Shown in pieces: positions 36,772 to 46,695 of a stretch of 64,000 nucleotides of DNA. Under the pieces are notes generated by a model, which ran no database searches, was not told the DNA's origin, and saw only the letters and a program-made list of their open reading frames with translations. The DNA is from Pseudomonadota bacterium (GTDB lineage Archaea; Thermoplasmatota; SW-10-69-26; JACQPN01; JAJPHT01): positions 124,001-188,000 of the forward strand of contig JAJPHT010000046.1 of assembly GCA_021325135.1 (NCBI GenBank), in the 5' to 3' direction. The position numbers and the translations under genes are program-made. How positions within the stretch are numbered: position 1 is the first letter of the stretch; each line of letters begins with the position of its first letter.

Positions 36772-37611
36772 ATGACCCTTCGACGGATGGCTCCCCTCTT
36801 CGCTCTGCTCCTTGTCGCCTCGGCCTTCGCGTGGTTGGCACCCCCCGCCGCCGCCGAGGATTGCATGGACACCAGCATCTGCAACAGCGTGCTCCAGTGC
36901 GTGGCCGGCCTTGAGCAGCACCCCGCGGTCATCTGCGCCATCGTCGACGTCCAGTGCGTCGACCTCATCGGCTGCTGCCAGTCCGGGCCTGCGGTCTCGT
37001 GCTACGTGGATGCGGGCAACTGCGGCGCCACGGGCGCGTTCGTGACGCTCTTCACGCAAGGGACGGCCCGCACCTCCGCCTGCGTCGACGCGTGCGGCGT
37101 CGGCGCCGGCTACAGCCTGGGCGTGGGCTCGGTGACGAGCGCGGGGTGCGTCACCGCGTGCGCGCTGCCCAGCGTGGGCGTCGTCGTCTTGGGCAAGCCC
37201 TTCTGCGTCACCGGCGTGCCCAGCGGCCCGCCCGGCGCCACCCGCTGCACGCTCTACGGCGGCTATCCGGGCCAGGACGGCGTCGTGATCGACTTCCCGC
37301 CCACGGGCCCCGGCGGGGGCGACGTGCCCCTCTGCGCGGGCCTGGGCTGCCCCGCCGCCACGCCGGTGGGCCTCGTCGTGAACAACGCGCCGGAGTGCGC
37401 CGGCGCCCCCACCCTGTGCAGCCTTCCCGGTCCTGGCTGGACCGTGGGTGTTGGCACCACCTGCGTGGGCGCCCCGTGGATCGGCACCACCCCCGCCCTC
37501 CCCGGCAACCCGCCCTCCTCGTGCCCCGGCGGCACGACCATCGGCATCACCGTCATCTGGGGCACGACGCCCGTCCTGGGAGGCCCGAACTACAACGCGT
37601 TCTGCTTCTGA
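36772..37611 (+). CDS. secreted Cys-rich protein (279 aa)
   Basis: Signal peptide MTLRRMAPLFALLLVASAFAWLAPPAAA followed by EDCMDTSICNSVLQCVAGLEQHPAVICAIVDVQCVDLIGCCQSGPAVSCYVDAGNCG, a helical Cys-rich stretch, then Gly/Pro-rich repeats also spaced with Cys. It has about twenty Cys in the mature part, so it is very likely a disulfide-bonded surface protein. No family recognised. It is divergent from the HRDC gene and convergent with gltX. Confidence 0.7.
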   Translation: MTLRRMAPLFALLLVASAFAWLAPPAAAEDCMDTSICNSVLQCVAGLEQHPAVICAIVDVQCVDLIGCCQSGPAVSCYVDAGNCGATGAFVTLFTQGTARTSACVDACGVGAGYSLGVGSVTSAGCVTACALPSVGVVVLGKPFCVTGVPSGPPGATRCTLYGGYPGQDGVVIDFPPTGPGGGDVPLCAGLGCPAATPVGLVVNNAPECAGAPTLCSLPGPGWTVGVGTTCVGAPWIGTTPALPGNPPSSCPGGTTIGITVIWGTTPVLGGPNYNAFCF

Positions 37612-42033: not shown

Positions 42034-42360
42034 GATGGCTTGTCTCGTGGGCGGGACGTCCTCAGCGCGAAGCGCGCAGGGGTTCCGTATCGCCTGCAAC
42101 CGCGACGACCCTTCGCGCCGCAGCGCGTGGGGGCCTCGCGGACGGGGGCAGACCGACCTTGAAAAGGGGCGATCGCGGGCTGCCTTGCCGGAATGTACCG
42201 ATTCCAGGCCTACCGAGACGGGCATCCCATATGAACCCTCGTCTTTCCGGCCGGTGGGTTCCGGGCCGGCCTCCCTTCTCAGGGCCCCGGCGGAAGTTAG
42301 GATTTCCACCCCGGTTTCCGCGGTTTTATATCGCGGCCGACCCCCTCGCCGGGGCTGGCG
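42034..42360. other. 327-base gene-free region between divergent helicase and STAND genes
   Basis: Contains a strong TATA box for the STAND gene (42322-42332), an AT-rich patch CATATG near 42230 that could be the helicase promoter, and a small stem AGCGCGAAGCGCGC at about 42063. No ORF with convincing codon use was seen. Confidence 0.6.
42322..42333 (+). promoter_or_regulatory. strong TATA box of the STAND gene
   Basis: GGTTTTATATCG, the best match to the archaeal TATA box (TTTATATA) in the window, centred 33 bases before the ATG at 42361. Confidence 0.75.
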
Positions 42361-45300
42361 ATGCCTTCCGCCGAGCCTTCCCGGGTCAAGGGCCTCCTCG
42401 ACCGCTACGCGCGCCAGCAGCCGCGCCGCGCGCAAGGGGGCCTCGCCAACCTCGCGGGCCTCGACTTCCAGCTTCGCTGCTATCTCGCCGCGTTCGTGGA
42501 GGAGATGGCCTCCTCGTCGGCCGTGGCGCCCGCGGGTGCGCGCTTCCTGGAGGCGCTCTCGGACCTCAGCCTCGTCTCGGACGACGCCGTCGCGTGCGTG
42601 CAGGTGAAGCGCACCCTCACCCGCGCGAGCCTGGCCAAGGCCGCGGAGGAGGCGGTGGCGCTCGACGAGTTCCTGGAGCGCGAGGCGCCCGACCTCCACG
42701 CCGCGTTCCGCTTCGAGGTCGTGGGGCTCCTGGGCCGCGCCGACGGCTTCGCGCCGGGCTGGGAGGGCGTGCAGCTTCCCCACGACGCCGAGGGGCGGGA
42801 GGCAAGGCAGGCCCGCTTCGAGCGCATGCTCGCGCAGGGGAAGCTCGCGCCCCCGCGCCTGGAGCCCGACCCGTGGTGGCGCGTCATCGCCGCCGCATGG
42901 CCCGTGCTGGACGAGCCGTTCGCCTTCGCCCGCGAGGCGCTGGACATCTGCCTGCGCCGCGGCCTCGACCCCTCGGGCGCGGAGCGCACGCGCGACGAGG
43001 TCGCCGAGGCGTTCGCGCGGCGCCGCCGGGACGCGGGGCTCATGGGCATGTGCCTGAGGCCCGAGGACGTGGCGGCGGACGCCCACCAGTCGCGCGAGAC
43101 CGTGCTGGGGCAGCGGCCCACCCTGGCTCACCTGCGCGACGGACGCTTCATGGAGCGTCCCGAGCGCGTGGACGCCGCGCTGGCGGAGTTGGACAGGCAC
43201 GTGGCGGAGCGCGACCTGCGCCAGGAGCCCTACATCCACGCCCTCTGGATCGAAGGCCGCTCGGGCAACGGGAAGAGCGTGCTCCTCCTGAAAGCCATGC
43301 GCCGCCTCGTCGAGGAGCGCGCGGCGCCCGTGATCTGGCTCGACGACGCCAGCGAGCAGCTTCTGCCCCTCCTCCAGACGTGGGCCCGCCTGCCGGAGGG
43401 CTCCATGGGGCTCTGCTACGTCTTCGTCGACGACTTCTACTCGCCCAACAAGCGCGCCGACATCGGCTTGCCCGAGATCGCGCGCCTGCTGCGGCGCAAG
43501 GACCGCTCCGACTGGCCGGTGCTGGTCACGTGCGGGCCCCCCGAGCAGCGCCTGGAGTGGGCCGCCAGCGGGCAGGACGAGGTCTTCCGCGTCGCCCACT
43601 GGCTCCTGCCCCCCGCCGAGGCCGACGAGCGCGAGGGGCTGCGCGGCTGGTTCCGCGAGCGCACGGGCGTCGAGAGGCGCGCGGGCGCCGCCTTCGGGGA
43701 GAACGACGGCCTCATGATCTCCATGATGTTCGAGATGCGCGAAGGGGACATGGTGGAGTTCGGCCGCCGCTTCCACCAGCGCCTCAGCGACCTCAACCTC
43801 GTGGACTCCATCATCCAGCCCCTGGCCCTCAACCGCCTCTACATCTGGGCGCCGGGCCGCTGGCTGGACGAGTCGCAGAGCGACGCGCTGCGCCGCCTCA
43901 ACCAGGACCGCGACTTCTCCTTCCTCTCCTTCCGCGGCCGCCCCGACACCTACATCCGCATCACGCACCCGCACCTGAGCGACGGCATCTACAACGCGGT
44001 GCGGAGCCGCGCGGACGGCATCGTGCGGGCGCGCGACCTGCACCGCGCCTTCGAGCGCAGCCTGGACACGGACCCCACCGTCGCGCACCTCGTCCTCGAA
44101 CGGGTCGCGCGGCAGCACGAGCGCCTCGCCTCGCTGGACGAGGGCGAATTGGCGCGCGGCATGGCCGCCGCGTGGCGCGCGTGGCTGGCCCGCGGCGGCG
44201 CCGCCGGCTTCCACGCCGCGCCCATGTGGACGAACTGGGCCGTCTGGAGCGCGCGCCAGCCCGAGGTCGCCGCCCTCCTGGGCGAGGCCCCCTCCGAGCA
44301 TGCGGCGCGGGCGCTCCACGAGGGGCACCCCTACTGGTCCACCCTTTGGGAGCGGCTCGCGACGCTGCCCCCGGAGGCGATGGGCCCCGCGACGCGCGCC
44401 CGCCTCCTGGAGCGGGGCCACCGTTGGCTGCGCGGCAACGAGGCGCGCCCGGAATGGACGTTCGTGTGGCGCCTCCTGGTGGACTCGCCCCCGGAGAGCC
44501 TCCCTGCGGGCATCGGACGAAGCGACCTCCTGCTCCAGGGGCTCGGCTGGCTCGCGGGGCGCGAGGACCGCCCCGAGTTCCCCTACGTCTGGCGCCGGCT
44601 CGTGGAGTTGCGCGACGCGCTGCCGGACGCGGCCGCCCTCGACGGCGTCCTGCGCCGGGGAGAAGGATGGCTCGCGGGCCACGAGGATCGGTTCGCCTGG
44701 TCGCGCATCTGGGAGGCGCTGCTGGACCTGCGCGCCCAGGCCGCGCCCGAGCGCGCCCGCCTGCTGCGGCAAGGACGGGAATGGCTTGCCGGCCGCGAGG
44801 AGCGCCCCGAGTGGAATTTCGTCTGGAAGCGCCTCCTGGACCTGCGCGCCGAGCTTCCTCCCGGCGAGGGGGACGATCTGGCCCGCGAAGGGCGTCTCTG
44901 GCTGGTGGGGCGCGAAGAGAGCGCCCAGTGGCCCCACGTCTGGCAGAAGCTCCTGGAGACGGACCTCCCCGCGGACGTGCCGCGGAGGGACCTGCTCCTG
45001 CTGGGCCTGGGGTGGCTGCAGGGGCGCGCCGACCGCCCCGAGTGGAGCTTCGTGTGGCGCCGGCTGGTGGAAGCGCGCCGGGAGCTCTCCGGTGGGGACG
45101 CGCTGTTGATCGAGGGGCAGGCCTGGCTCTCGGGCCGCGAGGGGAACCCCGCGTGGAGCTTCGTGTGGCAAGCCCTCGCGCAGGAGCGCCAAGGGCTCCC
45201 CGCGACGGGCTCCACGGCGCTCCTGGAGGAGGGGTTCCGCTGGCTCCAGGGGCGCGAGGAGCGCCCCGAGTGGGCGTACGTGTTGCAAGCCCTCGTGGAC

Positions 45301-46695
45301 CTCGGGCCCGACCTGCCCCCCGGCATCCCTCTCTCGCATCTCGTCGAGGCGGCTCTGGGGTGGGCGGCGAAGCGGCGCGCCAGGCCCGACTGGTGGCCGC
45401 TCTGGCGGAAGGTCGCCGACGGCTGCGCCCTGCTCCCGCCGGGGCCCCTGCGGGACGCGGTCCTCGCCGAAGGGAGCCAGTGGCTCGCGGAGCACCAGGA
45501 TCGCCCGGAGTGGTGCTTCGTCTGGCAACGGCTCGTGGACCTCCAGGCGAAGATCGCGCCGGAGGCCGACCTCGGCCCGATCCTGCGCCAGGGGCTCGCG
45601 CGGCTCCGGGGCGGCGAGGACCGCCCCGAATGGACGCACGTGTGGAGGACGCTCGTGGACCTGCGCGCGCACATGCCGGACCAGGCGCAGGTCGCGCCGC
45701 TCCTGGAGTCCGGCCACCGCTGGCTCGCAGGCCGCGAGGAGCGCCCTGGGTGGGGCTTCGTGTGGCAGCGGCTGGTCTGGCTGCGCGACGAGCTTCCCCC
45801 TTCGATCCCCTTGGATGACCTGCTCCTGAAGGGCCGCGAGTGGCTTTCGGGCCGCGAGGGGGACCGGTCGTGGTCGTACGTGTGGGAGAGCCTGGCGGAC
45901 GTCGGGAGGGAGCGCCACGGCGAGGCGGAGTTCAGCCGTCTGCTGGTCTTGGGGCATGGATGGCTCCCGGGGAACGAGGACCGCCCGGATTGGAGCTACA
46001 TCTGGCGCAAGCTGCGCCGGGGGAGCGCGGACCTTCCGGGCACCCTCGACCACGACGCGCTGCTCGCCACCGGGCGCCGTTGGCTCTGCGACGGGCCGCC
46101 CCGCGGGGAGTGGCCCCTCGTCTGGCTTTCCCACCACAAGGACAAGGCGACAGGCCCCGAGGACCGGGCCTTCCTGGGCGACCTGGCGTGGGCCTGGCTC
46201 CAGCGGCCGGAGAGCCGCGCGCGCCCCGAGTGGACCCAGGTGTGGAGGACCTGCTGCAGGGCGGGCCGCCGGGACCCGGCGTTCATGGAGGCGGGCTGGG
46301 CGCGCCTCCTCGCGCATCCTGACGCCGTGGAGGCCCCGATGCTTGCGGGCGAGCTCGTGTCGGCCTCCAGGAAACCGGGCGCCTGGGCTCCGCCCGCGGA
46401 CCTCAGGGCGTGGACGCACGCGTGGCTCCGGGCGAACCCCGACAACCCCAGCTGGGCGCCCCTCTGGCGCGCCCTTTGGGGCGCGGAGAGGTCCGAGGCG
46501 AGCGCGCGGCTCGCCCTCGAATGGCTCGCCGGAGGCGCCGCCCCGGGGCGGACGGGCTCCGTCGTGAAGCGTCTCTGCCGCGAGCCGCCGCCCGACGTGC
46601 GCGCCATGCTGGAGGCGTGGCTTGCGCTCCACCCCGAGTCCCCCTTCGCCGCGCCCCTGCGCGAGGCGCTGGAGCAGCCGGCCCCGCAGGCGTGA
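42361..46695 (+). CDS. Nuclease-STAND ATPase with ~20 tandem sensor-like repeats (antiviral-type)
   Basis: 1,444 residues in one frame. Residues 1-120 look like a PD-(D/E)xK nuclease of the DUF4297 sort: NLAGLDFQLRCYLAAFVEE, then FLEALSDLSLVSDDAVACVQVKRT with Glu64, Asp75 and the QVK motif at 81-83. A P-loop ATPase follows: IEGRSGNGKSVLLLKAM (Walker A, Lys305) and LCYVFVDDFYSP (Walker B, Asp357-Asp358). From about residue 680 to the end there are about 20 repeats of 38-40 residues, consensus LLxxGxxWLxGREDRPEWxFVWxRLVDLRxELP, a helical solenoid. This order (nuclease, STAND, repeat sensor) matches the Avs class of antiviral NTPases, in which the repeats bind a phage protein and the nuclease is then activated. 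No partner gene is adjacent. DNA codon use equals its neighbours. Confidence 0.85.
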   Translation: MPSAEPSRVKGLLDRYARQQPRRAQGGLANLAGLDFQLRCYLAAFVEEMASSSAVAPAGARFLEALSDLSLVSDDAVACVQVKRTLTRASLAKAAEEAVALDEFLEREAPDLHAAFRFEVVGLLGRADGFAPGWEGVQLPHDAEGREARQARFERMLAQGKLAPPRLEPDPWWRVIAAAWPVLDEPFAFAREALDICLRRGLDPSGAERTRDEVAEAFARRRRDAGLMGMCLRPEDVAADAHQSRETVLGQRPTLAHLRDGRFMERPERVDAALAELDRHVAERDLRQEPYIHALWIEGRSGNGKSVLLLKAMRRLVEERAAPVIWLDDASEQLLPLLQTWARLPEGSMGLCYVFVDDFYSPNKRADIGLPEIARLLRRKDRSDWPVLVTCGPPEQRLEWAASGQDEVFRVAHWLLPPAEADEREGLRGWFRERTGVERRAGAAFGENDGLMISMMFEMREGDMVEFGRRFHQRLSDLNLVDSIIQPLALNRLYIWAPGRWLDESQSDALRRLNQDRDFSFLSFRGRPDTYIRITHPHLSDGIYNAVRSRADGIVRARDLHRAFERSLDTDPTVAHLVLERVARQHERLASLDEGELARGMAAAWRAWLARGGAAGFHAAPMWTNWAVWSARQPEVAALLGEAPSEHAARALHEGHPYWSTLWERLATLPPEAMGPATRARLLERGHRWLRGNEARPEWTFVWRLLVDSPPESLPAGIGRSDLLLQGLGWLAGREDRPEFPYVWRRLVELRDALPDAAALDGVLRRGEGWLAGHEDRFAWSRIWEALLDLRAQAAPERARLLRQGREWLAGREERPEWNFVWKRLLDLRAELPPGEGDDLAREGRLWLVGREESAQWPHVWQKLLETDLPADVPRRDLLLLGLGWLQGRADRPEWSFVWRRLVEARRELSGGDALLIEGQAWLSGREGNPAWSFVWQALAQERQGLPATGSTALLEEGFRWLQGREERPEWAYVLQALVDLGPDLPPGIPLSHLVEAALGWAAKRRARPDWWPLWRKVADGCALLPPGPLRDAVLAEGSQWLAEHQDRPEWCFVWQRLVDLQAKIAPEADLGPILRQGLARLRGGEDRPEWTHVWRTLVDLRAHMPDQAQVAPLLESGHRWLAGREERPGWGFVWQRLVWLRDELPPSIPLDDLLLKGREWLSGREGDRSWSYVWESLADVGRERHGEAEFSRLLVLGHGWLPGNEDRPDWSYIWRKLRRGSADLPGTLDHDALLATGRRWLCDGPPRGEWPLVWLSHHKDKATGPEDRAFLGDLAWAWLQRPESRARPEWTQVWRTCCRAGRRDPAFMEAGWARLLAHPDAVEAPMLAGELVSASRKPGAWAPPADLRAWTHAWLRANPDNPSWAPLWRALWGAERSEASARLALEWLAGGAAPGRTGSVVKRLCREPPPDVRAMLEAWLALHPESPFAAPLREALEQPAPQA

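Follow-up and report, generated by a model that had tools for sequence, protein, structure and literature searches.

A likely single-gene, Avs-like antiviral STAND protein with a tryptophan-rich repeat region in an archaeon and its bacterial relatives

A 64,000-nucleotide stretch of archaeal DNA, here called the window, carries a single gene that likely encodes an Avs-like antiviral STAND protein, which would act by abortive infection, travel as cargo of mobile elements and have been acquired horizontally by the archaeon. The computed elements behind this reading are an open reading frame, an nSTAND5 match, conserved nuclease-like residues, predicted solenoid repeats, a rare and patchy occurrence, mobile settings of relatives, and a pairing with an acidobacterial gene. 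The Avs domain order of the original prediction was recovered as an effector–STAND–helical-repeat layout, with the solenoid coming from structure prediction, and Avs logic is most likely here because the parts stand in the same order. Their positions are given in Table 1.

Table 1. Features of the window gene and its upstream region (positions in the window; residue numbers in the encoded protein).
Feature	Position	Strand	Basis or remark
TATA-like box TTTTATAT	42324..42331	+	about 30 nt before start codon; promoter role inferred
Single gene, 1,444 aa: nuclease-like domain, nSTAND5 NTPase, winged-helix-like region, about 16 repeats	42361..46695	+	
Cap4/DUF4297-like PD-(D/E)xK nuclease domain (putative), residues 1-135	42361..42765	+	invariant E64, D68, Q81, K83
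nSTAND_NTPase5 match, residues 250-359	43108..43437	+	Pfam PF25199, 34.9 bits
Walker A GRSGNGKS, residues 299-306	43255..43278	+	sequence; G299, G302, G304, K305, S306 invariant
Walker B FVDD, residues 355-358	43423..43434	+	sequence; D357, D358 invariant over family alignments
Winged-helix-like region, residues 485-550, with LALNRLY and THPHLxDxxY	43813..44010	+	kept across family
Sixteen tandem units of about 40 aa (14 strong), residues 675-1296	44383..46248	+	repeat HMM, AlphaFold2, Foldseek
C-terminal tail, residues 1297-1444	46249..46692	+	resembles Acidobacteria homologue; no S1 domain

Re-deriving the gene from the sequence gave the same uninterrupted frame of 1,444 codons that had been predicted, and a whole-genome search found it in one copy. 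The host genome is confirmed as archaeal, since it contains RPB10 (PF01194), a family that among 14 control genomes was present only in the four archaea; a search of the host assembly for archaeal 16S rRNA found none. The gene lies between genes for a DEAD-box helicase and an ATP-dependent DNA ligase, both of which were most similar, among the relatives searched, to genes of G001 (61-62% identity), the nearest relative of the archaeon in the comparison set, and the contig thus belongs with the archaeal lineage. Codon GC of the window gene resembles that of its neighbours, with a GC3 of 0.95. Because the helicase and ligase genes are on separate contigs in G001, no clean empty site could be demonstrated, and a search for shared direct repeats of at least 10 nt flanking the gene found none. 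The AT-rich TTTTATAT occurs nowhere else in the 64 kb with both strands counted, and its place 5′ of the ATG would suit an archaeal TATA box and leaderless transcription. Both the gene's own TATA-like box and its lack of partner genes, as originally described, are retained. Neighbouring helicase and HRDC proteins were considered as defence genes and rejected, their PADLOC matches being of generic helicase type. Elsewhere in the window (36772-37611), a predicted Cys-rich protein that begins like a signal peptide and matches nothing in Pfam is possibly an archaeal cell-surface protein.

The NTPase part of the window protein exceeds the curated Pfam cut-off for nSTAND_NTPase5, which is 34 bits, and homologues score higher, at 45.1 and 47.7 bits. 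The P-loop with Lys305 and the double-acid Walker B had both been pointed out in the original prediction, and both are present with their key residues invariant. The LALNRLY and THPHLxDxxY motifs mark what we take, from general knowledge of such motifs, to be the winged-helix part of the STAND module. Profile searches of solved structures with the NTPase part returned generic kinases only, and the window protein as a whole had no match among solved structures. A phylum-wide search for the PF25199 family was set aside as unspecific: generic AAA+ domains produced matches in 289 of 293 genomes and in every one of the 14 controls, with only 7 passing the cut-off.

The N-terminal domain is supported as nuclease-like through its relatives. 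E64, S67, D68, Q81, V82 and K83 are invariant in an alignment of eight proteins, and the LEALSD-like and QVKRTLT blocks recur in the protein of genome G560, which was identified afterwards; judged from sequence, the window protein appears to hold the active-site residues of a PD-(D/E)xK nuclease (E64, D68, Q81 and K83). Glu64 and the QVK at 81-83, proposed originally as active-site residues, are borne out by this invariance, but Asp75, proposed alongside them, varies across the eight proteins and is discarded, and D68 is a better candidate for the acidic residue. As for the DUF4297-like assignment, the window protein alone matched none of the nuclease models (Pfam, Cap4 PF14130), and the claim therefore rests on relatives: the Cap4 model matches the N-termini of three of eight members (best 3.9e-6), and LmuA models of Lamassu match five of the eight rows of the family alignment (best 1.6e-5). 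A full-length Agrobacterium relative fell short of the Cap4 cut-off (25.4 bits vs 26.2). Alignment of profiles (hhalign) with two true Cap4 proteins was weak (probability 6.5%), with the GG...GfeyQ...LE..(S/E)D...QxK blocks in register, and a profile search of solved structures with the nuclease part found no relative.

An AlphaFold2 model of the N-terminal part, built on an alignment of six sequences, was poor, with a mean pLDDT of 56.5 and values below 50 over much of the nuclease region. In a Foldseek comparison Avs4-portal took ranks 2-3 and the AVAST5 filament rank 32, but these matches had low TM-scores, came from the poor model and lay amid many generic AAA+ proteins. The ranks are consistent with the Avs-like reading and are not proof of it.

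C-terminal to these domains, the Trp-rich repeat has the core LLxxGxxWLxGREDRPEWxYVWxxLL, and the repeat HMM counts fewer units (Table 1) than the 20 or so first estimated. An HMM trained on bacterial units alone recovered the identical 16 archaeal units, and 100 shuffled copies of the window protein yielded stray weak matches only, so the repeats are not a product of chance. By sequence, the window protein matched none of the Pfam repeat families (TPR/Sel1/PPR-type), and the unit stays, as had been suspected, unlike those of characterised Avs proteins. AlphaFold2 predicted an alpha-solenoid with two helices per unit (mean pLDDT 81), and Foldseek matched this model best to TPR/HAT-type solenoids with low TM-scores, as is common when solenoids are long and flexible.

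Where no contig end cuts into the repeat region, relatives have 7 to 13 units, weak ones counted. Units within the G560 and Formivibrio genes reach 97% amino acid and 98-99% nucleotide identity to one another and were thus duplicated recently, which indicates that the sensor has expanded recently in members carrying such nearly identical repeats. Units of the archaeal gene share at most 72% amino acid identity, and TRF detected no near-identical tandem array in it. Recent duplication in two homologues together with divergence in the archaeal copy would be as expected of an evolving sensor.

Beyond the repeats, the full-length proteobacterial members that were scanned have C-terminal S1 RNA-binding domains, four of them in the Enterobacter protein (L032:13500-14692). 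A DUF6035 protein of Prevotella contains a comparable S1 stretch. We know of no described Avs system in which S1 domains are joined to a nuclease–STAND protein. These domains, together with the missing Cap4 match of the window protein, would suit a reading in which the nuclease-like domain has degenerated or has RNA as its substrate, and in which the bacterial members with S1 serve to sense or cut RNA. We regard this as very unlikely, since E64, D68, Q81 and K83 do not vary across eight proteins and the window and acidobacterial proteins are entirely devoid of S1.

Seven homologues have the nuclease–STAND–repeats order and the same 40-residue repeat: one on an Enterobacter plasmid, one in an IMG/VR prophage, four on proteobacterial chromosomes (a contig end truncates one of these) and one in an Acidobacteria metagenome-assembled genome (MAG). 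The Enterobacter hormaechei plasmid protein, found by plasmid protein search, is 31% identical to the window protein over 92% (E = 2e-130), and its identical layout argues that the domain arrangement is not due to chance; an Agrobacterium plasmid protein is a distant relative that has no repeat. A single-protein search of a collection of 84,980 species found nothing, and the alignment-based search of the same collection found four relatives (the Acidobacteria MAG, Uliginosibacterium, Rheinheimera and Formivibrio). The G560 homologue came from an order-level search. Full-length alignment searching also returned ribosomal S1 proteins, which were rejected as caught through the S1 domains, and for that reason only Formivibrio (G296) and G560 are taken as real matches of that search. 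Phage records gave no match, E. coli genomes gave none to the Enterobacter gene at the DNA level, and further viral scans gave the same prophage contig or nothing.

Two of these genes have incomplete frames. The acidobacterial homologue, which reaches 61% identity to the window protein in its best segment, has a broken frame near position 3999 of L035; a sequencing error may explain this, or the gene may be dead. The Uliginosibacterium gene (G294, contig C8, L036) ends at the contig end, and its missing part matches contig C2 (L046) at 904500-905732; this is probably one gene split by assembly within the repeats.

Relatives occur within a prophage, on plasmids and next to integrases, settings that are expected of a defence gene. 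On the IMG/VR contig, a full-length copy lies between a replication-type HTH gene and genes for antitermination, a methylase, a holin and a lysozyme. The same kind of short integrase adjoins the STAND gene in Formivibrio and G560, and the Formivibrio locus has YqaJ and recombination-directionality genes as well. These short tyrosine integrase-like genes (about 205 aa; L038:14556-15170 and L092:15924-16547) could be the mobility genes of small defence islands. The Enterobacter copy adjoins genes for an integrase, an AbiE-type toxin and colicin V. Directly upstream of it, L032:1563-9105 holds colicin V-type bacteriocin genes, an exporter and an AbiEii-like toxin gene, and by its predicted gene content is a plasmid conflict-gene cluster.

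With two members on plasmids, three adjoining integrases and the Enterobacter copy next to toxin and colicin V genes, the protein might instead be a STAND nuclease triggered by plasmid or foreign DNA, or an addiction or conflict protein of mobile elements, and not primarily a sensor of viral proteins. We consider this unlikely, because the architecture is that of Avs and because a full-length copy resides within a prophage, and prophages, as a general observation, commonly carry anti-phage cargo (PMC12724215).

The prediction of a defence protein would have been weakened by homologues consistently in housekeeping surroundings, and the outcome was divided: the archaeal gene and two bacterial ones, those of Acidobacteria and Rheinheimera, lie amid housekeeping genes (purF-like and acetolactate-synthase-like in the two bacterial contigs, as read from their sequences), but others lie by integrases, on plasmids or in a prophage. 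Since the archaeal neighbours, the helicase and ligase genes, are housekeeping genes, the argument from defence context rests on the bacterial members. A housekeeping regulator, that is, a STAND transcription or signalling factor with no role in defence, would be compatible with the three housekeeping surroundings; against it stand the rare and patchy distribution, the prophage, plasmid and integrase settings, the nuclease-like domain and the recently duplicated repeats, and we hold it to be very improbable.

Returning to the preferred Avs-like reading, the family occurred in 2 of 300, 1 of 296 and 1 of 297 genomes in three samples with the centre genome included, and the window gene was found in none of 59 relatives of the archaeon. 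The tree joined the archaeal and acidobacterial proteins with support of 98/99, with the remaining branches unresolved and the Agrobacterium branch very long. Because it pairs with an acidobacterial gene and was not found in the 59 archaeal relatives, the window gene appears to be a single gene that moved horizontally, and transfer between bacteria and archaea is probable. A previously undescribed archaeal branch, as first proposed, is not supported, most known members being bacterial; the grouping of the window gene with the acidobacterial one supports instead a gene that crossed domains.

From the order of the parts, we infer the following mechanism. The Trp-rich alpha-solenoid would bind a viral component, and this binding would free the nSTAND5 switch, allowing ATP binding and oligomerisation. 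Oligomerisation would gather the N-terminal Cap4/DUF4297-like nuclease domains, which would then cut DNA in the infected cell and so bring about abortive infection. The gene would spread as self-contained cargo of mobile elements, and would have reached the archaeon by horizontal transfer.

A more far-reaching suggestion, which we put forward tentatively, is that these proteins form a class that has no name so far, composed of a Cap4-like nuclease, nSTAND5 and a Trp-rich 40-aa solenoid, which crosses between bacteria and archaea and respecifies itself by expanding or swapping near-identical units, and whose proteobacterial S1 domains could sense RNA. The open-licence literature that was searched yielded no description of this nSTAND5 family. 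Antiviral STAND proteins have an architecture common to the immune receptors of animals and plants, and this family would bring to them a receptor whose repeat sensor is unusual. It places the same immune-type gene, with up to 61% identity, in an archaeon and an acidobacterium, and its natural series, which runs from 7 to 16 repeat units with near-identity among some of them, could show how a repeat sensor gains a new target.

Among known systems, Avs1-Avs4 (AVAST) are alike in having an N-terminal effector, a STAND NTPase, a C-terminal helical-repeat sensor and mobile-element settings. Their nuclease effectors cut phage and host DNA upon recognising terminase or portal, and their C-terminal repeats bind conserved phage proteins (PMC12931631); SeAvs3 has a Cap4-like PD-(D/E)xK domain as effector, which is activated by tetramerisation (PMC11291478). 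Avs4 is also the Avs protein ranked highest with the window N-terminal model. Unlike them, the window protein has an NTPase that fits nSTAND5 and a sensor of 40-aa Trp-rich units with no Pfam match. PADLOC families, Avs included, did not match the window protein, NCBIfam gave nothing above threshold and no Avs model among the matches listed, and PADLOC Avs2 matched two homologues weakly (best 0.046). The family would act like Avs but fits no Avs model, with another STAND clade and another repeat. Avs5 (Sir2–nSTAND3–repeats) is likewise built of three parts and senses with helical repeats (PMC12931631), two homologues give weak nSTAND3 scores, and the AVAST5 filament is among the Foldseek matches; the family differs in its nuclease-like domain in place of Sir2 and nSTAND5 in place of nSTAND3.

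Cap4/DUF4297 (PF14130) proteins resemble the family in the N-termini of the relatives and in the conserved E, D and QxK, but the window protein is unmatched, and its nuclease is fused to STAND instead of having CBASS or HerA partners. Likeness to Lamassu LmuA is confined to weak matches in the N-terminal part, and an SMC-type (LmuB) partner was found neither among the neighbours of the archaeal gene nor among those of the Enterobacter gene. Fungal NLRs with internal repeats and bacterial STAND sensors diversified by DGRs are likewise reported as rapidly diversifying STAND sensors (PMC10907252; PMC4986451); in contrast, the diversity of the present family is seen as repeat copy number and near-identical units.
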